Below are positions 19,681 through 51,481 of a DNA stretch of 64,000 nucleotides, in pieces; position 1 is the stretch's first letter; each line of letters begins with the position of its first letter. The stretch comes from Vreelandella olivaria. GTDB lineage: Bacteria > Pseudomonadota > Gammaproteobacteria > Pseudomonadales > Halomonadaceae. A model generated the notes under the pieces. The model saw only the letters and a list, made by a program, of their open reading frames with translations, did not search any database and was not told where the DNA came from. A program made the position numbers and the translations under genes. Where the stretch lies: NCBI RefSeq assembly GCF_023507745.1, contig NZ_JALPZO010000123.1:124001-188000 (forward strand), read 5' to 3'.

Positions 19681-20604
19681 ATGAGAAGACTAAAGGTAAA
19701 GAACTTAAACCGATTACGAAGCTTCGAGGCGTCAGCGCGCTTGGGTGGCTTCGCTGCTGCTGCAGAGGCGCTTAATGTCACCCCAGCGGCCGTCAGCCAA
19801 CAGATACGTTCATTCGAGAATGAGTATGGTGTAGAACTATTTTTGCGCCTTCCCAATAGTCTTGCACTCACAAATGAAGGGCGAACACTACTACCTCGGA
19901 TAGCTGATGCCCTCAAAATGATCGACGAAGCTGTCGGCAACATCACCACAGGAAAGTTAGAGGGAACTCTAACCATCAATGTAGCACCATCCTTCGCTTT
20001 ACACTGGTTGCTACCCAGGATCGACGACTTTATTCAACACTATCCACAGATTTCCCTTACCATCCTTGCCGACGAGATGCCTAGCCAGGACACCATCAAT
20101 CAACTCGATTTGCGGATCGTTCACGGTAGCGGTAACCACCCTTATCTCGACTCTCAGATGTTACTCAAAGACGATGTCTTCCCGGTGATGACGCCAGAGC
20201 TTTACCACAGTCTGCCAGTAACAGAGTTTTCTGATCTTATGAGCCACGTATTGCTTCATGACATTCGCGTTGGCGCTAGCGAAGCAAGCATGCGTTGGCA
20301 ACGCTGGTTTGAAGATGAAAAGCTCTCGATATCCAGTCCACGACAAAGCCTTCACTTCGGCAACGCAACTTTGATGTTAGAAGCCGCATCGCAGAGTTTG
20401 GGGGTTGCGTTGGGGCGAAGCGCCTTGGTACACGATTACCTCGTGTCAGGAAAGCTAATTGCACCACTGCAAACTCGCAAAAGCGCAGAACACGCCTATT
20501 ACACGCTCACAACGAACCTGATGGCTCTTTCTCCCAGAGTCATCGCCTTTCGCTCCTGGCTGAATACTCAGGTCAGCCAGATGAGTAAAAGCACCCCTAA
20601 CTGA
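19681..20604 (+). CDS. LysR-family transcriptional regulator (GcvA-like)
   Basis: 307 aa. The helix-turn-helix reads NLNRLRSFEASARLGGFAAA then LNVTPAAVSQQIRSFENEYG. The effector domain has GTLTINVAPSFALHWLLPRI and LRIVHGSG, typical of the GcvA branch. The ribosome-binding site is weak. Its last eight bases overlap the 3' end of the PurD-like pseudogene, which converges with it. It may have regulated the decayed amino-acid gene set to its right; direct evidence is lacking. Confidence 0.87.
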   Translation: MRRLKVKNLNRLRSFEASARLGGFAAAAEALNVTPAAVSQQIRSFENEYGVELFLRLPNSLALTNEGRTLLPRIADALKMIDEAVGNITTGKLEGTLTINVAPSFALHWLLPRIDDFIQHYPQISLTILADEMPSQDTINQLDLRIVHGSGNHPYLDSQMLLKDDVFPVMTPELYHSLPVTEFSDLMSHVLLHDIRVGASEASMRWQRWFEDEKLSISSPRQSLHFGNATLMLEAASQSLGVALGRSALVHDYLVSGKLIAPLQTRKSAEHAYYTLTTNLMALSPRVIAFRSWLNTQVSQMSKSTPN

Positions 20605-21432
20605 TGCGTTCGGCGGTAGCTGCTATCGGACGTTCAGTCAGCTTTTCTCTCAGCAATGGTAGAGTCCTACTGCCGTTTGCGTGATACTGTTTATGCAAAG
20701 CACAAGGCCAGTCTTCGGCAATGCGCCCATTTACCTTAATACGGCCACCAATATCGCATCTCATTCTCACCCCTTTGAAGAACAAGCTACCTCGTGAGCT
20801 ATAAACTTCACGGCGGGCGTGTTCGACCGTCGCACCCAAAGCAGAGATGTGCGCAATACGACCAACTCCGGTCTGCAATCTGCCGTCGGAACTGGTTGTG
20901 ACATTAGCCCAGAATACTTGGGCTGAGCCTTTGAGCTTTGTGGGGTCGAAATCAATTTTCTGAGGCAAAAAACTCATTGTAGTAGGCCAGCACTTGGCTG
21001 GATCATTGCTGTTGCTTTCAACGCCTGTAACGAGACTGATAGCAAGACTCGCTCGTGAACAGGTTTCAATCTTTCGAATATCACTTCCCCCCTCTGCAAT
21101 TAATGTAAAGACAGCAGATAAATCCTCTTTAACACGGGGAAAGATGACTTCTGATTCCGAGTCACCCATCCTTGCATTTATTTCGATCAGATGAGGCTTG
21201 CCACTGGCATCGACACGCAGCCCTAGATATATCGCCCCATTAAACACGATGCCTCGGGACTTGAGTACTGCACGTAGTGGATCAAGGATCTCCGCACGAA
21301 TACGCTCTTAAAAACACCTGCGGTACCAGGAATATAATGTATGCTCACATCATCTGGGCTGGTTGAGATCAATGTCTGGCATATCGCGTGACCACGACCA
21401 GTTTTATCAATAACAGCGATAGTATGTGTCAT
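20597..21432 (-). pseudogene. PurD-like ATP-grasp ligase, large internal deletion plus frameshift
   Basis: The first about 40 residues (THTIAVIDKTGRGHAICQTL, then SIHYIPGTAG) look like the N-domain of a phosphoribosylglycinamide-synthetase-type ATP-grasp protein. After a T5 run near 21307-21311 the frame changes. A second frame then reads ERIRAEILDPLRAVLKSRGI and FNGAIYLGLRVD, followed by LIEINARMGDSESEV, the C-terminal ATP-grasp metal block of PurD (normally EFNCRFGDPET). About 150-200 residues of ATP-grasp core are missing. IEINARMGDSE departs from housekeeping PurD, so this was probably a specialised amino-acid ligase rather than the purine enzyme. It lies just downstream of the EamA exporter. 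Confidence 0.7.
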
Positions 21433-21439
21433 ATTAAAG

Positions 21440-22348
21440 TCACCTACGAATGGAAACCAGGATACCGAGTGTGGTCAAAAACACACCGATGATTTCGTAA
21501 GAGGTGGGAACTTCTAAGAGGAAGAGAAGCCCACCAATCATGGCGAATGCCGGAACCAGCGCACCAAAGAGAGAGCCACGTGAGGCGCCTAGTTTCTCTA
21601 CGGCCACGGAATAAAGCCAAAGCCCCAATACTGCGGTGATAATTCCCTGTCCTACCCCCTGCACTAGCCAAGCCCCCGCTTCTTCCACATCCAGATGGAA
21701 GTCGCCAAACAAGATGATTAGAGGTACCCAAGTCAGTAATGACCAGACAGATACTGCTGCCACCGCATCCCAGGAGACTAGGCCCCATTTTTTAGTCAAA
21801 ATTGTGTAAGAAGCCCAGAGTACGCCACCCAAGACAAGATATAGATCACCGAGGAGTATCTCAGGGGTCGCGTTGATGGCGAGACTTTGCCAGTTCACGA
21901 GAGCCAAACCGCCGAAGATCAAGCAATACCCCATAACCTGTACGTAGGTTTTTCTCTCATTAAGGAAGAGGTAACCACCAAGCGCACTGAGTATCAGCAT
22001 AGTACCGGTCTCCACGACTCCCAGATGACCCGCAGGTACATATTGCAGTCCAAGTGCGGAAACGTAAACGTATATCGCCCCTGCCCCTGAAGCTATTATG
22101 AATGACTTTATTGGTGATATACGTTGCCAAACCCGCTTGCGAAAATAATAAGGCAAAAGCATAAGACCAGCGAAGACAAAGCGCACTGCTACAATTTCTT
22201 GAGCGGTAAAGTTACTGGTTACGCCAAAGCGGGTTAGTACAGGCCACAGCCCCCAGATGATTGCCGCGAAAATGCCCGCAGTTACACCGATGAGTAGGGA
22301 ACTGGAGGAACCTTCAACCTCCAGTTGAATATTGATTTTTGATGTCAT
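21440..22348 (-). CDS. EamA/DMT-superfamily transporter
   Basis: 302 aa with ten predicted membrane helices in two EamA repeats: FAAIIWGLWPVLTRFG, then VRFVFAGLMLLPYYFRKRVW; the second repeat ends with GALVPAFAMIGGLLFLLEVP. Likely an inner-membrane exporter of an amino acid or related metabolite. The ATG overlaps the 3' end of the upstream halogenase/desaturase remnant. It appears intact although its neighbours on both sides are broken. Confidence 0.87.
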   Translation of the reverse strand: MTSKINIQLEVEGSSSSLLIGVTAGIFAAIIWGLWPVLTRFGVTSNFTAQEIVAVRFVFAGLMLLPYYFRKRVWQRISPIKSFIIASGAGAIYVYVSALGLQYVPAGHLGVVETGTMLILSALGGYLFLNERKTYVQVMGYCLIFGGLALVNWQSLAINATPEILLGDLYLVLGGVLWASYTILTKKWGLVSWDAVAAVSVWSLLTWVPLIILFGDFHLDVEEAGAWLVQGVGQGIITAVLGLWLYSVAVEKLGASRGSLFGALVPAFAMIGGLLFLLEVPTSYEIIGVFLTTLGILVSIRR

Positions 22349-23084
22349 AAGGTTTCCCCTTCAAGTTACATTCTTTTAGATGAACCAAGTAGCCACCCCA
22401 TACTTCAGTAAAGCGCTCGGGCGCTTTAGCTTTATATTTCAGGCGTTCCTGAGCTGAATTTGGCCAGTCACAACCAGGAGCAACATGATGTAGATCGTGC
22501 TGAACCGTATCTCCAACCACAATAAATAAGCGAGTTGGAACATGGACGAATAAAGCCTCAGTCCACCATAAAGCTCAGTAGAAGAAAGAGGCATTCTGTG
22601 GCGTTGGGCTACAGCAGATACGGGCATAATAAGGCTTAACTATATGCCAACCATGTGTATCACCATTGCGATAGAGGTTTGAAAGCACGTACTCCTCAGG
22701 TGCCCAAGGAGCACGAAAAACCTCCTCTCCAGCGAGCCTGCTAATAAAATTACAAAGTTCACCAGATGAATAAATTTTGGGAATAAAGGTGCTTTTTCTA
22801 GATAGTATGTGCTGTCCGACAGTTCTCATTTGCTGCGGAGTATCGCCGGTGCTCTTTATTAGTAGGTTTTTATTTTTTCCATGATACTCTGTGATGTACT
22901 CACATTCATTACGAATTGCATCAAGCATTTCTGGCCCCAAAAAATTGGGAATACTAACAAATCTCATACTTTTAAATTTAGTGGCATACTCCTCAATTTC
23001 CATATCACTATACATCTGAATTCTTTTCTCAATGATACAACCTGGGCACTCCACCACATTTTCGTTTTTAGCACCATCAACCAT
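22314..23084 (-). pseudogene. BesD-like Fe/2OG amino-acid halogenase (or hydroxylase) N-terminal remnant fused to desaturase-like C-terminal remnant
   Basis: A strong AGGAGG precedes the ATG. Residues 24-147 (MRFVSIPNFLGPEMLDAIRN, then LAGEEVFRAPWAPEEYVLS and NGDTHGWH) follow the layout I recall for BesD and related Fe(II)/2OG amino-acid halogenases. The match ends exactly at the first iron histidine, H147 (codon at 22644-22646). The frame continues as unrelated residues to a TGA at 22575-22577. The same frame resumes with ALWWTEALFVHVPTRLFIVV and GDTVQHDLHHVAP, where HDLHH fits the HxxHH box of membrane desaturases, ending at 22314. I infer a deletion that joined two genes, followed by a nonsense mutation. 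The distal His, Arg and D/G ligand position of the oxygenase are lost. Confidence 0.62.
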
Positions 23085-24100
23085 AATCAACCCCTCCTAA
23101 TATTTCTTTTAAGTGCATACAACTAGCGAATTTAAATTATTAAAAATAACCACACATCTCAATAAAAAAGAGAAAATTAAGCCAACTAAAACATTATCCA
23201 CCTAAAATCACACACCAGCCCTAGCATTCAGATTAATTATCTACGCACGTAAGAATTTCGCAACAAAAACCTTTCTAATCCTTAGGGTTAGAAAAACCAT
23301 ACCCTAGGTCATATATAAACCTGTCCTATAGTATTCAACCTTCATCTTCTTACTGTATTATGCAGCTCTCGCATCATCCCTTGCTCTAAACCAGTGACGG
23401 CTTAGGCATTCGTTTCGGAACTTACCGTTTAAGCTCTCAACAAATTCATTCTTACCAGGCTAGATAACTCCCAGTGACACCACCGCCTCTTTACTCCAGA
23501 GGAACATCGATTTTCTCGATAACTCGTCACCATAGCACTTGCTGAATAAGCTGTCTGGAACCAGCCAGCTTTCGTGAAGCGCGCACAGAATATAGCAGGG
23601 AGGTAATATAGTTGATAAGTAAAACCAGACACCAACGTAGGTGGTAATATTGCCATCATAAGAGAGGTGGCTGATGGTCAGGAAGAGACATACTTTTCGC
23701 CTGCGTTTAATAATAAATGCTACCCGTTAGTCTTTAACCAGGGATATATACTCTTGCTTAGGATTTCACCTCACAGAGCGTTAGTTAAAGTATTCTTCTA
23801 CGCTAGCCTCACAGATTACGGACAAGCGTCAGGGAGTCATGCCTAAGGGGAAAGTTTTAACCCGAGAACCGCAACGGATTCAGGAGAAAGTCAGTATCAA
23901 AGGCTCTAGTGCTATCGAATAAAACAAAGCATGAGCCGCCGTGGTACCTGCTGGAATAATGCACGATGGAGTGACTGTTACAAAGCTTAAAATCCGAGCA
24001 GATACCTCCCTCAGAATATCGAAACCTATCTGAAAAAAAGATTAGTTGGCCGCTACATAACCAATTAAGGTAGCGTGCCAATCATCTATTTCTTATCACC
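23085..24100. other. AT-rich decayed region without intact genes
   Basis: About 1 kb of AT-rich sequence. Apart from the IS3-type fragment listed separately, only short open frames are present, including a minus-strand one over about 23.46-23.70 kb (ITTYVGVWFYL, ELSRKSMFLWSKEAVVSLGV) that I cannot place. The promoter for the halogenase remnant should lie in its left part. Confidence 0.5.
23358..23459 (-). mobile_element. IS3-family transposase (OrfB) fragment
   Basis: A 33-codon minus-strand frame closed by stops on both sides reads PGKNEFVESLNGKFRNECLS followed by RHWFRARDDARAA. This matches the end of the DDE integrase core of IS3-type transposases (the E and the K/R of N-x-ESFNGKFRDECL). 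No terminal inverted repeats or remaining transposase could be found, so it is a scrap of an old insertion. Confidence 0.7.
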
Positions 24101-32478: not shown

Positions 32479-33399
32479 TCAAGTCCCTGGCATCATGATG
32501 GTAATAAACACCGGTGCCAGCAACGTCAACAATAACCCGCTAACCAGAGCCAATGGCACCGCATCAGGCGAACAGGCCTGCTTGATAATCGGCAACGTAG
32601 AGTCCAGTGCAGTTGCCCCGGCGCTGCCAATACCAACCTGCGGCTGATGCCGTCCCAAGGCGTAGAGCACCATAATAGCAAGCAGTTCACGAAGCAGGTC
32701 TGTCATGAGGGCCATCGTTCCATACACTTGCCCAAGCGCATCACCGATCATGACGCTAGAAAGCGTAAACCAACCGAAACCACTGGCAAGGGCTAAGGAG
32801 ACCCGTAAGCTTTCACCAGTAATCCAGGCAGCCATAGCACCACCGACTAAGGAGCCCAGAACAACAAATAGGGGAACGGCCAATATCGACCACGATAACC
32901 ACTGCACATTAAGTTTGACGTGTGTTAGGTCGATACCGACCAGAAGAATTAGCAGCAGTAGCATGGCACCGCTTGACGGAAGCGCCAGCGCCCCCCCTAA
33001 AATGCGCTCCTGTAGAAGGTAAAGCACACCGCCCAGCCCAACCATCACCAGAGCGATGAGGCACTCTTTAAGCGGCGGCCAGATATAGCTCAGTCTGAAT
33101 GGCTGACGCGCTTTGGCAGGGAGGCTTTGCCGACTGCTTTTAAGCATGAGAATGAGCAGGCATGGAAACACCGTGGTGCAGACTGCAAAAACCAACGCGG
33201 CCTTCATCACAATGCCTATCGAGCTTGCCGACAAAATCACCTCACCAAATTCGAATCCAATAAGGAATAGAAGCACCCAAACTAAAGGTGCTATCGAATG
33301 TAGAAGTGGCTTACGGAACTGGGTGGGAAGTAGTCTTCCAATCGCATACCCCGCAAGTAGCGCAATCAGAATCGGTAGCAGAGAAAAAAGTATTTTCAT
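32479..33399 (-). CDS. LysO/DUF340-family amino-acid exporter
   Basis: 306 aa, strongly hydrophobic, about eight to ten helices. The start MKILFSLLPILIALLAGYAI with GRLLPTQFRKPLL and the central SSGAMLLLLILLVGIDLTH resemble LysO (YbjE), the L-lysine exporter of enterobacteria. The later SGFGWFTLSSVMIGDALGQV is the family's conserved helix. Start overlaps the dioxygenase stop (ATGA). It is the last gene of the island's minus-strand operon and the second exporter in it. Substrate may be lysine or a modified analogue; that is inference. Confidence 0.8.
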   Translation of the reverse strand: MKILFSLLPILIALLAGYAIGRLLPTQFRKPLLHSIAPLVWVLLFLIGFEFGEVILSASSIGIVMKAALVFAVCTTVFPCLLILMLKSSRQSLPAKARQPFRLSYIWPPLKECLIALVMVGLGGVLYLLQERILGGALALPSSGAMLLLLILLVGIDLTHVKLNVQWLSWSILAVPLFVVLGSLVGGAMAAWITGESLRVSLALASGFGWFTLSSVMIGDALGQVYGTMALMTDLLRELLAIMVLYALGRHQPQVGIGSAGATALDSTLPIIKQACSPDAVPLALVSGLLLTLLAPVFITIMMPGT

Positions 33400-34144
33400 A
33401 TTTTTTGAATCATCGGTGAGAAATCAATAAGTATCATGCACCTATCGGCATCTTCTGCATCAACTTCAGATTTAACTATTGGTGATACGTAATGAGATAC
33501 CCGTGGGTCATGAACAGCAAAGCTATCCATGAATTCGCGTAGTTCAAACTTCGCACAGATATCTTCTTCAGCAACTTCATTCAGCGTCAGGTTTCTCACG
33601 TGGGTAGAACCTATATAGTTCACCCCGCCATTCGTGCTTTTTGACCGACTAACCAGATGAGCAAATGTAAAAGGTTCGCCATCTTGATGGAAACAGTTAG
33701 GCGAGCTTATGCCGCGATTGTTGATCGAAGAAGATACTATTCTGACGAAATGCACGCCGAAATATATTGAGATATCAAGTCCCTCTCAGACCAGAAAGTA
33801 TTTTTAAAATCTTTAATGACAAGTTCTGTCAATAACTCAGTGGACTTAATGATGTCGCTCAATGCATAAAAGTAGCGTATGTTCTCATGCTCAGGATTAT
33901 TGCCAGACATTCCGTGTCCTCGCGAATCAATTACCACGGGCATCCAATCCACCCCAGCGCAGCCCCGCCATGGAACGATCACTCCATTTCCATATCGCCT
34001 GAATCGTTGAACACTAGTCGGCGCATAAGGATCTGGCTCTAGTGTCCTAAATTCTCTGTGAAGAAAAGCAACGTCTTTTTCACTGAAAGCGTGGTTCACA
34101 GAAAAGCGGGAATACCCATCCTTCAAAAGACTTTCTCTAATCAT
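33396..34144 (-). pseudogene. 2OG-Fe dioxygenase (L-isoleucine dioxygenase-like, PF10014 type), frameshifted
   Basis: Two overlapping frames form one protein of about 248 aa. The 5' frame covers residues 1-122 (MIRESLLKDGYSRFSVNHAF, VIDSRGHGMSGN, ending SERDLISQY). The 3' frame holds the active site: CFHQDGEPFTFAHLVSR with the HxD iron ligands, GGVNYIG, then FAVHDPRVSHYVSPI with the distal histidine. The shift is at an ATAT stretch, 33761-33768; removing two bases restores SQYFGVHFVRIV. Relatives hydroxylate free aliphatic amino acids. AT-rich compared with its operon. It could be a true mutation or an assembly error. Confidence 0.7.
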
Positions 34145-34203: not shown

Positions 34204-34869
34204 TCATTTTGAAAAGGTGAACATCATTCCTCCGACCCCCCATAACAAACGCATCGAAAAGGCGATGAGCATTACTCCCATCAACCGCTCGAACCAGTGA
34301 CCAATACGCAGAAAACGCTCGCGAACAGGCAGGCTGGTGAACACCAAGCTGACCAACACGAACCAACCGGCATTGACTAGGCACATCCAACCGCCATAAA
34401 GCATTTGAATGCGCAATGGCGTCGAATCACTGACCACAGTCGTGAACACGGCCAGGAAAAACAGCGTCGCCTTGGGGTTGGTCGCATTGGTCAGAAACCC
34501 CAGCGCGAACGACTGGTGAAAACTCCTTGCCCCTGTCTCGGCTCCAGCATCCAGCGCCAGCCCGGCTGTGTGCTTACCTGCCTGCCGGATGAACGTGACG
34601 CCGAGATATAACAGGTAGGCTCCGCCCACCAACTCGGCCGCACTCAGTAACCAGGGGGTTGTGTGCATCAACGCGCCGACCCCCAGCAAGGTATAGATCA
34701 CATGCACCGAGATACCGGCCCCAATGCCGACCGCCGTAGCGATGCCTAGACGCCTCCCATAGAGCACGCTCTGGCGAATCGTGACGGCGAAATCCGGCCC
34801 CGGCGCCACGACTGCAAGAAAGTGTATGGCGGCCAGGGCAAGAAATTCCCCCAGATAATCCGGTGTCAT
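34204..34869 (-). CDS. LysE-family amino-acid exporter
   Basis: 221 aa, six predicted helices. The LysE/RhtB core is clear: HFLAVVAPGPDFAVTIRQSV near the start, GIGAGISVHVIYTLLGVGAL, and FALGFLTNATNPKATLFFLA. These inner-membrane proteins export basic amino acids, homoserine or threonine. It begins one base after the 2OG oxygenase stop, and the broken dioxygenase gene follows after 59 bases. Its place between two amino-acid oxygenase genes suggests it exports their product. Confidence 0.9.
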   Translation of the reverse strand: MTPDYLGEFLALAAIHFLAVVAPGPDFAVTIRQSVLYGRRLGIATAVGIGAGISVHVIYTLLGVGALMHTTPWLLSAAELVGGAYLLYLGVTFIRQAGKHTAGLALDAGAETGARSFHQSFALGFLTNATNPKATLFFLAVFTTVVSDSTPLRIQMLYGGWMCLVNAGWFVLVSLVFTSLPVRERFLRIGHWFERLMGVMLIAFSMRLLWGVGGMMFTFSK

Positions 34870-34870
34870 A

Positions 34871-35641
34871 TCAACTCCAAAAGGAGAGCGGGGTCGCTGG
34901 GCCGCGATAACCCACGAAACAAGACAGGCTGAGTCGCACCCCTTCGGAGCCCGGTGTTACGGCGTGCATCTTGCGTGAGTTGAACAGGATCAGGTCTCCG
35001 GCCTCTGGGCATACCTCCAAAGTGGCCGCTCCCAGAAGCGTTGGATCAATGCCATAACTGTCACCTCGCATCTTGTCGAAAGCCTCTGCAGACAGCTGCT
35101 GATCCCATATCTGCAGCGTGCCACCCTCGTCGGGCATGGATAGGTAGACGTTTGCAGCCATTTGCGCCTGTAAGCTACAAGCCTGGAAACTGTTGGGTGC
35201 GTCTTTGGCGAAGATATCGTGATGAGCCAGGAAAGTGACGCCTGGCTTAACAGCACGCGACAATCCGACATACATCTTTCGACCATATAGCGTTTGGAGC
35301 TGAGCACCTGCCGACCATAGTTCGTCCAATACACACCTGAGCAAATCGATAGGGGATACATAAGGTGCGCAGCGCTTCCTCAGTTCATTGATGTTGTCGA
35401 AAACACTCTCGAAATAATTAGCGATGAGCGGCGGCTGGTTCTCTGCTTCGTAAAAGGCCATCCCAATCCGGCCAATACTGGGTGCATTCAAGTATTTTTG
35501 AAGCCCGCGCTCCATGATCTGCTCGGAAAGCCTGGCGGCAATGTCCTTGTCAATAAAGTGACGTACACGAACCGCCAGAACTTCTTCACGCGCCAGCCTC
35601 TCGACCGCCCCCTGTTTTAAATCATCCAGTTCGATCAACAT
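34871..35641 (-). CDS. Fe(II)/2-oxoglutarate-dependent oxygenase, probable amino-acid hydroxylase
   Basis: 256 aa. The double-stranded beta-helix ligands are readable: HxD at H140 and D142 (FLAHHDIFAKD), distal histidine H226 (FNSRKMHAVTPG) and the 2OG-binding arginine R236 (VRLSLSCFVGYRG). Between them are VYLSMPDEGGTLQIWD and GDLILFNSR. The ATG used follows AGGGGAA; ten more in-frame codons upstream lack support. HxD, not HxG, implies hydroxylation rather than halogenation. I cannot place the exact family. Being coupled to a LysE exporter and next to a tRNA-editing gene, it likely modifies a free amino acid. Confidence 0.78.
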   Translation of the reverse strand: MLIELDDLKQGAVERLAREEVLAVRVRHFIDKDIAARLSEQIMERGLQKYLNAPSIGRIGMAFYEAENQPPLIANYFESVFDNINELRKRCAPYVSPIDLLRCVLDELWSAGAQLQTLYGRKMYVGLSRAVKPGVTFLAHHDIFAKDAPNSFQACSLQAQMAANVYLSMPDEGGTLQIWDQQLSAEAFDKMRGDSYGIDPTLLGAATLEVCPEAGDLILFNSRKMHAVTPGSEGVRLSLSCFVGYRGPATPLSFWS

Positions 35642-35742
35642 ACTTCCCCTGTTAATTATCTTTGCAGCCACTTACCGGATGGCAGGCAACGTTTATTGGC
35701 TCCTGTGACGTCGCCGAAATAAGCAGCGGGATCATGGCTAGA

Positions 35743-36375
35743 TCATTGAATGTCGTACTTAACGATTAACTGGCCTTTCCTCAGGTGCGCTGACAATATC
35801 TGTAGGCCTTGCAAATCCGCCGTTTCAACGACGTGAGTTCCGCCACATCCATAGGGTTTTAGTTCACCGAAGCCGACCTGGCGGAATTGCTTTTCGTGTA
35901 CCTTGATCTTGCAAGGGAGGTTGCGGGCGATCAGGTCTTCACAAAGGTTTTGTGCCGTTTCCACATCTACGGCCTGAGCATCGCCAGCAGGTTTAAAGGT
36001 CACTCGCGCCTCTCCGGGCCAGTGGTGTGCCTTGACGGGCCGCCAAGCGAACGCTTCAAGTGCGTGACCAATTAGATGTCCAGCCGAATGCAGCTTGGAA
36101 TGACGCTGGCGCTGTTCGGCATTCACCCTGGCGAAAGCTGAGCCAGGGCCAACCTTCTGACGGGTGTAATGGATAATATTCCCGTCCACTATTTCCACAG
36201 CGAAGACATCCGCGTCATCGATCCAGCCCACGTCTGCGGGTTGCCCACCTCCCTGCGGGTGAAAGGGAGTTGCATTCAATCGCACGCCATACCCGCCATC
36301 AGCCAATTTCTCGCAATATAGAACTTCAACTTCGGATTCCGTTATGCCGCCTTCCCAATACAATTTTCGCGTCAT
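35743..36375 (-). CDS. AlaX-type alanyl-tRNA trans-editing protein
   Basis: 210 aa, free-standing editing domain. Zinc ligands fit the HxxxH and CxxxH pair: H100/H104 (SAGHLIGHA) and C177/H181 (YGCGGTHV). The N-terminal glycine-rich FHPQGGGQPADVG is also diagnostic. AlaX proteins hydrolyse Ser- or Gly-tRNA(Ala), and related domains edit other mischarged tRNAs. GAGGAA precedes the ATG. It is the first gene of the oxygenase/exporter group and divergent from a LysR gene. An extra editing factor beside amino-acid oxygenases suggests protection against misincorporation of their product. Confidence 0.87.
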   Translation of the reverse strand: MTRKLYWEGGITESEVEVLYCEKLADGGYGVRLNATPFHPQGGGQPADVGWIDDADVFAVEIVDGNIIHYTRQKVGPGSAFARVNAEQRQRHSKLHSAGHLIGHALEAFAWRPVKAHHWPGEARVTFKPAGDAQAVDVETAQNLCEDLIARNLPCKIKVHEKQFRQVGFGELKPYGCGGTHVVETADLQGLQILSAHLRKGQLIVKYDIQ

Positions 36376-49824: not shown

Positions 49825-51198
49825 TTATGCCAGTGAATCCAGGGTCGTCGCCACGGCGTCAAACAAACGCTCCAGTTCAGCCTCAGTGGTACCAAACGGA
49901 GGGCCAAACTGCAGCGTGTCGCCGCCATAGCGCACATAAAAGCCTGCTTCCCACAGGGCTAAGTGAGCATCACGCGGGCGAATGGTTGGGTCACCATCGC
50001 GGGGGGCCAGTTGGATAGCGCCAGCCAAACCATAGTTACGGATATCGATAATGTGATTAGCGCCTTTAAGCGCATGTAATTTTTGCTCAAAGGCAGGGGC
50101 AATCTCACGAACCTGGGCAGGGAAGTTTTCACGCTCCAGCATGTCAAGCGCCGCCAAGCCAGCCGCACAGGCCACAGGGTGGGCACTGTAGGTATAGCCG
50201 TGGGAAAACTCGATGGCGTGCTGAGGGCCACCAGCATGCATAAAGGTGTCAAAAATCTCGCTGGAAGCAATCACCGCCCCCATGGGCACGGCACCGTTGG
50301 TGATCTGCTTCGCCACGTTCATGATATCCGGTGTAACACCAAAGGATTCGGCGCCTGTTGTCGCGCCACAGCGCCCAAAGGCGGTGATCACTTCATCGAA
50401 AATCAACAGAATATCGTGGGCGGTACAGAGCTCGCGTAGGCGCTCCAGGTAACCCTTAGGTGGCACGATCACGCCAGCAGAGCCAGACATCGGCTCCACA
50501 ATCACCGCCGCAATGGTCGATGCATCGTGCAAGGCAATTTGGTCCAGCAGTGCATCAGCAAGTTCAGCGCCGGTTTCCGCCTGACCGCGGGTATAGGCGT
50601 GGCCTGCCTGAAGGGTATGCGGCAAATGCGTCACATCCATCAGTTGACCATAGTGCTTCCGGTTGCCACCGATGCCTCCCAAACTGGTTCCACCGATATT
50701 GACGCCGTGATACCCCTTGGCGCGACCAATCATACGCGTTTTCTCGGGCTTACCTTTTAGCCGCCAGTACGCTTTGGCCATCTTGACGGCGGTGTCTGCC
50801 GACTCTGATCCCGAATTGGTGAAAAACACATGGTCCAGGCCTGCGGGGGTCAGGCTTGCCACCTTTTCTGCCAGCTTAAATGCCAGTGGATGCCCGATCT
50901 GAAAGCCGGGCGCAAAATCCAGCGTCCCTAACTGGGCAGCTACGGCGTTTTGAATCTCTTCGCGATTATGGCCCGCGCCACACGTCCACAACCCGGACAG
51001 TGAATCGAACAACTTCCTGCCCTGGTCATCGATGTAGTAACGCCCTTCCGCTCCCGCAATAACACGTGGATTGGCGCGGAAGTCACGATTTGCACTAAAC
51101 GGCATCCAGTAATGCTGGTTAAGCGGGGTATTCGATGCACGCTCGTTGGCAGAGCGCTCAGATGCTTGCGGGGGTGTTTTGCTTTTTATTCCAAACAT
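49825..51198 (-). CDS. Omega-amino-acid:pyruvate aminotransferase (class III; beta-alanine type)
   Basis: 457 aa. Class III aminotransferase: GLWTCGAGHNREEIQNAV, HVFFTNSGSESADTAVKMAK, LLIFDEVITAFGRCGATTGA and the PLP lysine in NVAKQITNGAVPMGAV. Highly similar in pattern to beta-alanine:pyruvate aminotransferases (BauA type). The ATG chosen follows GGAG by nine bases; another in-frame ATG lies five codons upstream. Operon partner of mmsA and divergent from the DUF3311-symporter operon. Confidence 0.9.
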   Translation of the reverse strand: MFGIKSKTPPQASERSANERASNTPLNQHYWMPFSANRDFRANPRVIAGAEGRYYIDDQGRKLFDSLSGLWTCGAGHNREEIQNAVAAQLGTLDFAPGFQIGHPLAFKLAEKVASLTPAGLDHVFFTNSGSESADTAVKMAKAYWRLKGKPEKTRMIGRAKGYHGVNIGGTSLGGIGGNRKHYGQLMDVTHLPHTLQAGHAYTRGQAETGAELADALLDQIALHDASTIAAVIVEPMSGSAGVIVPPKGYLERLRELCTAHDILLIFDEVITAFGRCGATTGAESFGVTPDIMNVAKQITNGAVPMGAVIASSEIFDTFMHAGGPQHAIEFSHGYTYSAHPVACAAGLAALDMLERENFPAQVREIAPAFEQKLHALKGANHIIDIRNYGLAGAIQLAPRDGDPTIRPRDAHLALWEAGFYVRYGGDTLQFGPPFGTTEAELERLFDAVATTLDSLA

Positions 51199-51481
51199 AG
51201 TGTCCAGCTCCATCGCTATGAGGCATAGCCTCAGCATGCGCTACGGGGCAGGTATGTAAAATTACACTTTTCTTTTGTTCACGTTAGAGAATCTATACGT
51301 AACAGGGGGGCTTTCCTATTGCGGGCGGCTTGACGGGGGTTATAAAAAGATCTAATCATTATATTTATACGAATAAATACAACAAAAAAACGGACCACGC
51401 CCAGCATCGCCCCATTCGGCCATTTGATCGCCGATAAGGCGCCACGTAGTTAATAATCTTTTAAATTAAAGGGTTTAACCG
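51199..51481. other. Divergent promoter region, aminotransferase / DUF3311
   Basis: 283 bases holding the promoters of both divergent operons. AT-rich around 51340-51390. I saw no convincing RutR-like palindrome or other strong operator. Confidence 0.4.

Follow-up and report, generated by a model that had tools for sequence, protein, structure and literature searches.

A minus-strand reading frame in the window (the whole stretch of 64,000 nucleotides of Vreelandella olivaria DNA analysed here) joins the beginning of one enzyme to the end of another, and is accompanied by the genes and gene fragments collected in Table 1. The frame, 23084..22314, for which the first-pass annotation named no strand, encodes 169 residues before a TGA at 22577-22575, and another 86 between that codon and a stop at 22316-22314.

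Table 1. Genes, gene fragments and deletion seam at the remnant locus
Feature	Position	Strand	Evidence
LysR-type regulator, intact, 307 aa	19681..20604	+	PF00126/PF03466
PurD-like gene, C-terminal part	20597..21307	-	47% identity to L055 residues 250-451; GARS_C 36.9 bits
PurD-like ATP-grasp ligase gene, first ~41 codons	21310..21432	-	68% identity, L055 residues 1-40
EamA-type exporter, intact, 302 aa	21440..22348	-	PF00892 112 bits
Membrane desaturase-like C-terminal part (residues 268-357 of L055 counterpart)	22314..22628	-	68% identity
Deletion seam, 15 bp	22629..22643	-	alignment to L055
BesD/HalD-family Fe(II)/2OG enzyme, N-terminal ~142-147 residues	22644..23084	-	PF23169 112 bits
Integrase-core transposase fragment	23361..23459	-	PF13683 rve_3 32.4 bits over 33 aa, cut-off 26.5

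The match of the N-terminal part to the Pfam family HalD (PF23169, E 3.4e-32, cut-off 26 bits) covers positions 2-139 of 228 and stops at the last histidine of GDTHGWH (22644), which is the first iron-ligand histidine. Its best match in the PDB is Halogenase B (7u6i, 5.7e-27), and it shares 53% identity (tblastn) with residues 2-142 of the HalD protein encoded at L055, a locus in a Sneathiellales MAG. These matches bear out the earlier placement of this part in the BesD group up to the first iron-binding histidine. The match to PF23169 is well above its cut-off; the NCBIfam model Lys_halognase_BesD (NF042920) gives 63 bits, far below its cut-off of 450; the intact HalD protein of L055, with 172 bits, is also below that cut-off. 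In a tree in which several other branches are long and placement is unsure, the window piece clusters with the proteins of L055, L056 (Stappia) and L057 (a Rhodobacteraceae MAG) with support of 99/98. The arginine of the TPR motif, kept in all 21 aligned homologues, is replaced by glutamine in the window. The piece does not contain the two histidines of a complete iron site, everything past the first being deleted.

A class-wide search with the N-terminal part found matches in four of 369 genomes, the window's own among them. Matches to PF23169 are present in 110 of 250 genomes of the family (105 of them above the cut-off) and presumably represent other Fe/2OG proteins, for example ectoine hydroxylase. 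Apart from that of the window, the matches listed for these genomes score at most 74 bits and mostly lie in frames of about 300 aa.

The deletion starts directly after the first histidine. Compared with L055, 1136 bp are absent, comprising the remaining part of the HalD gene, the spacer and desaturase codons 1-267, and the reading frame is kept across the seam. When the intact L055 desaturase is compared with the whole window by tblastn, 61 of 90 residues of the tail are identical (E 1.7e-40), and the desaturase model used to search the genus matches the same tail with one TGA inside. One of the three His boxes, HDLHH, is left; each of the 21 intact homologues described below has all three. 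The tail is thus desaturase-like and has an HxxHH box, as the first-pass annotation had it. The in-frame TGA noted there exists as well, but it does not mark the boundary: about 17 codons separate it from the seam, and it belongs to the part derived from the desaturase. The search of the C-terminal part against PF00487 that had been proposed as a check fails, because the 86-residue tail by itself has no desaturase match in Pfam; the full-length desaturases of L055 and L025 match FA_desaturase (PF00487) with 44.9 and 61.9 bits.

The idea that the tail might be the remaining half of the interrupted BesD gene was dropped, since the intact relatives place it in the desaturase. A match to the tail in another genome (G237, L023, E 3.5e-4) is on the strand opposite an apparent glucose-6-phosphate dehydrogenase gene and is taken as chance. 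The L025 desaturase has no match among PDB sequences. The predicted structure of the L055 desaturase (AlphaFold, mean pLDDT 69) gave no match at E<=0.001 in Foldseek and is uninformative: its best match is a chain of the Ycf2-FtsHi complex (E 0.012, probability 1.00, TM 0.38), and AlkB appears only at rank 32 (E 1.5).

The HalD, desaturase and PurD-like pieces all lie within 20597-23084. The EamA protein is 66% identical over 294 aa to that of L055, and in both places its gene stands between the desaturase and the PurD-like gene. The PurD-like gene lacks about 627 bp compared with L055, and its C-terminal part is out of frame with its start. The LysR protein is 44% identical over 298 aa to its L055 counterpart, but the position of its gene differs, being beside the PurD-like gene in the window and beside the aminotransferase gene, at the other end of the cluster, in L055. 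The transposase fragment, presumably of the IS3 type, is on the side where L055 has the aminotransferase gene. No EctB-like aminotransferase was found near the remnant; across the window, the one genuine match is to a class III aminotransferase with 24% identity, encoded at 49828-51213.

The GC content is 0.41-0.51 over 19-24 kb, as against 0.50-0.58 in the flanks, and a similar dip (0.46) is found at 33 kb. At 33396-34144 on the minus strand lies a second broken Fe/2OG oxygenase gene, the C-terminal part of which matches PF10014 (2OG-Fe_Oxy_2, 50.9 bits); the N-terminal part is in another frame and has no Pfam match. The adjoining minus-strand region 34204-36375 encodes a LysE exporter, an Fe/2OG protein (PF13640, 37.5 bits; its WelO5 match is below the cut-off) and an AlaX-like editing protein, whose tRNA-synt_2c and SAD matches are below their cut-offs. 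This region looks like a second island for amino-acid modification and export.

Intact loci in other genomes

Genomes in which both genes are separate and intact, proposed earlier as a check, do exist. In G378 (L025, L035), one of the four genomes matched in the class-wide search, an intact HalD-family gene of 265 aa is followed, with an overlap of 4 bp, by a gene of 368 aa, the product of which matches the window tail at its C-terminus. A contig collection (84,980 species by its description) was then scanned for two peptide patterns derived from the aligned desaturases, which hold nothing of HalD but limit what can be found. The scan returned 247 stretches, of which 21 were confirmed, representing 21 distinct loci with an intact desaturase. 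Seventeen of them are from actinomycetes. The other four are L055, L056, L057 and L039, the last being the gammaproteobacterial MAG of L025 again.

A HalD-family gene is found by tblastn directly upstream of the desaturase at every one of the 21 loci, which supports the first-pass suggestion that two enzymes of one pathway had been joined by deletion. The tblastn searches also detected a PurD-like ATP-grasp gene at all 21 loci, a gene for an EctB-like class III diaminobutyrate aminotransferase at 20 (L046 is the exception), a NUDIX gene at 10 and an EamA gene of the L035 type at one. EamA and LysR genes of the window's type occur at L055 only, and their place in the core cassette is thus tentative. 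The gene order at L055 is that of the window, HalD, desaturase, EamA and PurD-like, with the aminotransferase gene situated before HalD.

The linkage to HalD looks specific to this subgroup of desaturases. None of the eight more distant loci of the desaturase superfamily that were compared (L036-L038, L088-L092) has a HalD match, and none of six plasmid HalD records (L028-L032, L034), taken from a total of 36, matches this desaturase. A further 23 genomes gave weak desaturase-like matches.

Some actinomycete loci have further ATP-grasp genes, and the five proteins tested (L042, L046, L047, L052, L058) are ATP-grasp proteins by Pfam. Two intact clusters contain single open frames (L059:6751-8892 and L058:6860-8953) in which an ATP-grasp part, recognized by Pfam in L059 and by eye in L058, precedes a complete HalD part. 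The PurD-like protein of L035 is 42-48% identical to those of the actinomycetes, but its identity to the L055 protein is no more than 31%. The two types may therefore make different products.

The more distant desaturases have neighbors of other kinds. At L088:8954-13345 the desaturase is accompanied by a PF10014 oxygenase and by EamA-like and threonine-dehydratase-like genes, at L089:8138-10372 by an AzlC-like exporter, and at L090:7719-9583 by mutase-like genes; apart from PF10014, these names were given by reading. On an Agrobacterium vitis plasmid (L036:4234-11839) the homologue lies beside genes annotated as an iron-containing redox enzyme, a 2OG-Fe dioxygenase and dapF, with an EamA transporter near, and this group possibly represents another amino-acid pathway. 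A further distant homologue, L072 (G614:C23:30294-31358), also has one in-frame TGA.

Proposed pathway and the fate of the cluster

Homology, syntenic linkage, motifs and deletions have been shown above; in the pathway proposed here, the substrates, the reactions, their order and the product are inferred. The EctB-like aminotransferase would supply L-2,4-diaminobutyrate or a close diamino acid. The BesD-family Fe/2OG enzyme, with its full His-Asp-His triad, would then hydroxylate an unactivated carbon, and the membrane diiron enzyme of the desaturase superfamily would carry out a second C-H oxidation, either a desaturation or a hydroxylation. The PurD-like ATP-grasp ligase might form an amide with the oxidized amino acid, after which the EamA protein would export the product, with the LysR protein as a likely regulator. 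Rather than a halogenated compound, the pathway more likely made a diamino acid or peptide bearing a hydroxyl group and/or an unsaturation.

Two of these assignments can be described further. The PurD-like ligase has GARS domains, and the L055 protein finds true PurD as its best PDB matches; at 265 bits it is below the purD equivalog cut-off of 288 bits, and the L035 protein is above it with 329. The ligase could therefore be performing a purine-type reaction. The L055 desaturase gives 33 bits with the model of GntB, an arginine hydroxylase (NF041365, cut-off 380 bits), and this match, weak as it is, makes hydroxylation by the membrane enzyme conceivable.

The aminotransferase points to diaminobutyrate as the building block. 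Twelve of the 20 aminotransferases were scanned with TIGR02407 (ectB), and all 12, together with the EctB of the window's own genome, matched at E<=1e-150; the proteins of L055 and L035, for which scores were printed, are above the curated ectB cut-off. The L055 protein shares 49% identity with the EctB encoded in the window's genome by a gene lying between neighbors that read as ectA and ectC. The assignment as EctB-like is based on the model score and this identity of about 49%.

It is possible, although we rather doubt it, that the same cassette acts on lysine or ornithine and that the EctB-like protein has another role, such as that of an omega-aminotransferase for the amino acid once modified. 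The N-x-T of the LNMTW stretch of BesD, which we take to be the residues in contact with lysine, is kept in all 12 desaturase-linked rows aligned and in none of the eight unlinked rows, so that a lysine- or ornithine-like substrate may be envisaged. None of the names of BesD substrate residues that were sought occurs in the available parts of PMC10187165 and PMC13244439. The known substrates of the BesD family are lysine, ornithine and certain aliphatic amino acids (PMC8407142, available text). Against such a substrate stand the EctB-type scores, above the equivalog cut-off in both aminotransferases with printed scores. The first-pass proposal of a free amino acid of the lysine type is thus favored by the N-x-T shared with BesD and disfavored by a partner that points to diaminobutyrate.

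That first-pass annotation also spoke of a halogenase. At the position occupied by Asp or Glu in hydroxylases, a Gly or Ala is usual in halogenases of the BesD kind (PMC8407142 and PMC13244439, as far as available). The motif is HGWHWG in BesD and HGWHWD in all 21 desaturase-linked HalD proteins, including the nearest three, L055-L057; the eight unlinked proteins aligned have HWD (six) or HLD (two). The 30 intact PF23169 members in which the motif was read (21 linked, eight unlinked and BesD) thus carry Asp in 29 cases and Gly only in BesD, and the Pfam name 'Halogenase D' can mislead. As the deletion in the window starts right after the histidine, the carboxylate/Gly position is absent and not directly readable, and it is by kinship that the lost enzyme was most likely a hydroxylase. 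A true halogenase with HxG, making a chlorinated or alkynyl amino acid, is quite improbable: the closest solved structure is Halogenase B, the NCBIfam BesD model does match, if far below its cut-off, and the diagnostic residue is deleted, but all the intact linked homologues have HWD. As to the alkynyl pathway suggested earlier, which in bes involves the diiron enzyme BesC and the PLP enzyme BesB, no gene of either type was noticed when genes of the window cluster, L055 and L035 were read.

The hydroxylase and the desaturase were fused by a deletion of about 1.1 kb, and a second deletion, of about 0.6 kb, disrupted the reading frame of the ligase. Both halves of the fusion must be inactive, because the first is without the carboxylate and the second histidine ligand and the second is without two of its three His boxes. 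Expression of the fusion frame is possible. The view that the frame might be a functional natural fusion, a bifunctional or regulatory protein, has in its favor the frame kept intact across the seam and the single ATP-grasp-HalD frames of L058 and L059; it is very hard to maintain in the face of the in-frame TGA, the missing iron ligands and His boxes, the replaced arginine and the breakage of the adjoining PurD-like gene. An assembly or binning artefact is equally hard to credit, for although the genome is a draft of 182 contigs and the desaturase is found in only this one of 82 genomes of the genus, a single cluster inside a long contig shows two deletions at separate places as well as substitutions and the loss of the aminotransferase gene, and the genome has a completeness of 100 and a contamination of 0.01. 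The TGA, the lost ligands and His boxes and the broken PurD-like gene confirm the remnant character proposed at first. Very probably the stretch is what is left, no longer functional, of a conserved cassette for the biosynthesis of an amino acid, in which a once intact pathway has suffered two deletions and lacks its aminotransferase.

We tentatively suggest that the intact cassette represents an undescribed natural-product pathway of actinomycetes and proteobacteria. A BesD-family hydroxylase and then a membrane diiron oxygenase might act on diaminobutyrate, another diamino acid or a peptide to give a doubly oxidized (hydroxylated, unsaturated, possibly cyclic) antimetabolite, joined by ATP-grasp ligases. 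The bacterium of the window might have stopped production through the two deletions and kept the exporter and the regulator, perhaps as a protection against producers.

The remnant itself is a case of ordinary gene decay, and its value lies in having led to a set of closely linked genes present in 21 genomes, of which 17 are from actinomycetes. Interest in BesD homologues stems from the C-H functionalization of free amino acids. With its hydroxylase-type site and its partners, namely a membrane desaturase-like enzyme, an EctB-like aminotransferase and a PurD-like ligase, the subgroup described here offers a way, open to testing, of reaching a new amino-acid product and also membrane diiron enzymes acting on amino acids.

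Relation to known systems

The cassette of EctB-like, HalD, desaturase and PurD-like genes is seemingly uncharacterized: searches aimed at the set or its HalD enzymes brought up no description of it, in a literature that included few subscription papers and was judged largely by titles and the openings of abstracts. Two papers were considered and set aside. In Paraburkholderia phymatum ectB and a desaturase are at different loci (PMC8305402, available text), and for the operons in which a tRNA-synthetase-like enzyme is surrounded by genes for ATP-grasp, 2OG dioxygenase and diaminobutyrate transaminase proteins, the available text of PMC2922099 names no desaturase. A Streptomyces genome paper (PMC11857848) mentions ectB, a halogenase and a desaturase.

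The closest known system is the bes cluster of Streptantibioticus (Streptomyces) cattleyicolor, with BesD and the product beta-ethynylserine. This cluster presumably also has an ATP-grasp ligase, and presumably uses the soluble diiron enzyme BesC and not a membrane desaturase; we know of no EctB-like gene in it. BesD is a chlorinase with HWG, whereas the HalD proteins of the cassette have HWD. The likeness lies in the PF23169 oxygenase, which in bes acts on a free amino acid (PMC8407142, available text). The BesD-family lysine hydroxylase (PDB 7jsd, 'Hydrox') is of the same family and keeps the carboxylate ligand (PMC13244439, as far as available), although in sequence the L055 HalD protein matches it more weakly (1.4e-37) than HalB (8e-51).

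The mangotoxin mbo cluster, with the acetylenase MboA and two ATP-grasp ligases, builds a small peptide with an oxidized side chain by ATP-grasp enzymes; MboA is heme-oxygenase-like, however, and neither HalD nor a membrane desaturase is mentioned for mbo in the available text (PMC13185094). The syl genes of syringolin, as named in the available text of PMC2773804, are an NRPS/PKS set without a HalD gene. SylB, which that paper calls rhizobitoxin desaturase-like and regards as the likely desaturase of a lysine residue, is nevertheless a precedent for lysine desaturation by a desaturase-like enzyme (PMC2773804), and RtxC of rhizobitoxine may be compared likewise, by description only. For the alternative that the membrane enzyme hydroxylates its substrate, the comparison is with GntB, the L-arginine gamma-hydroxylase of guanitoxin, a transmembrane enzyme acting on arginine (PMC10367076, available text).
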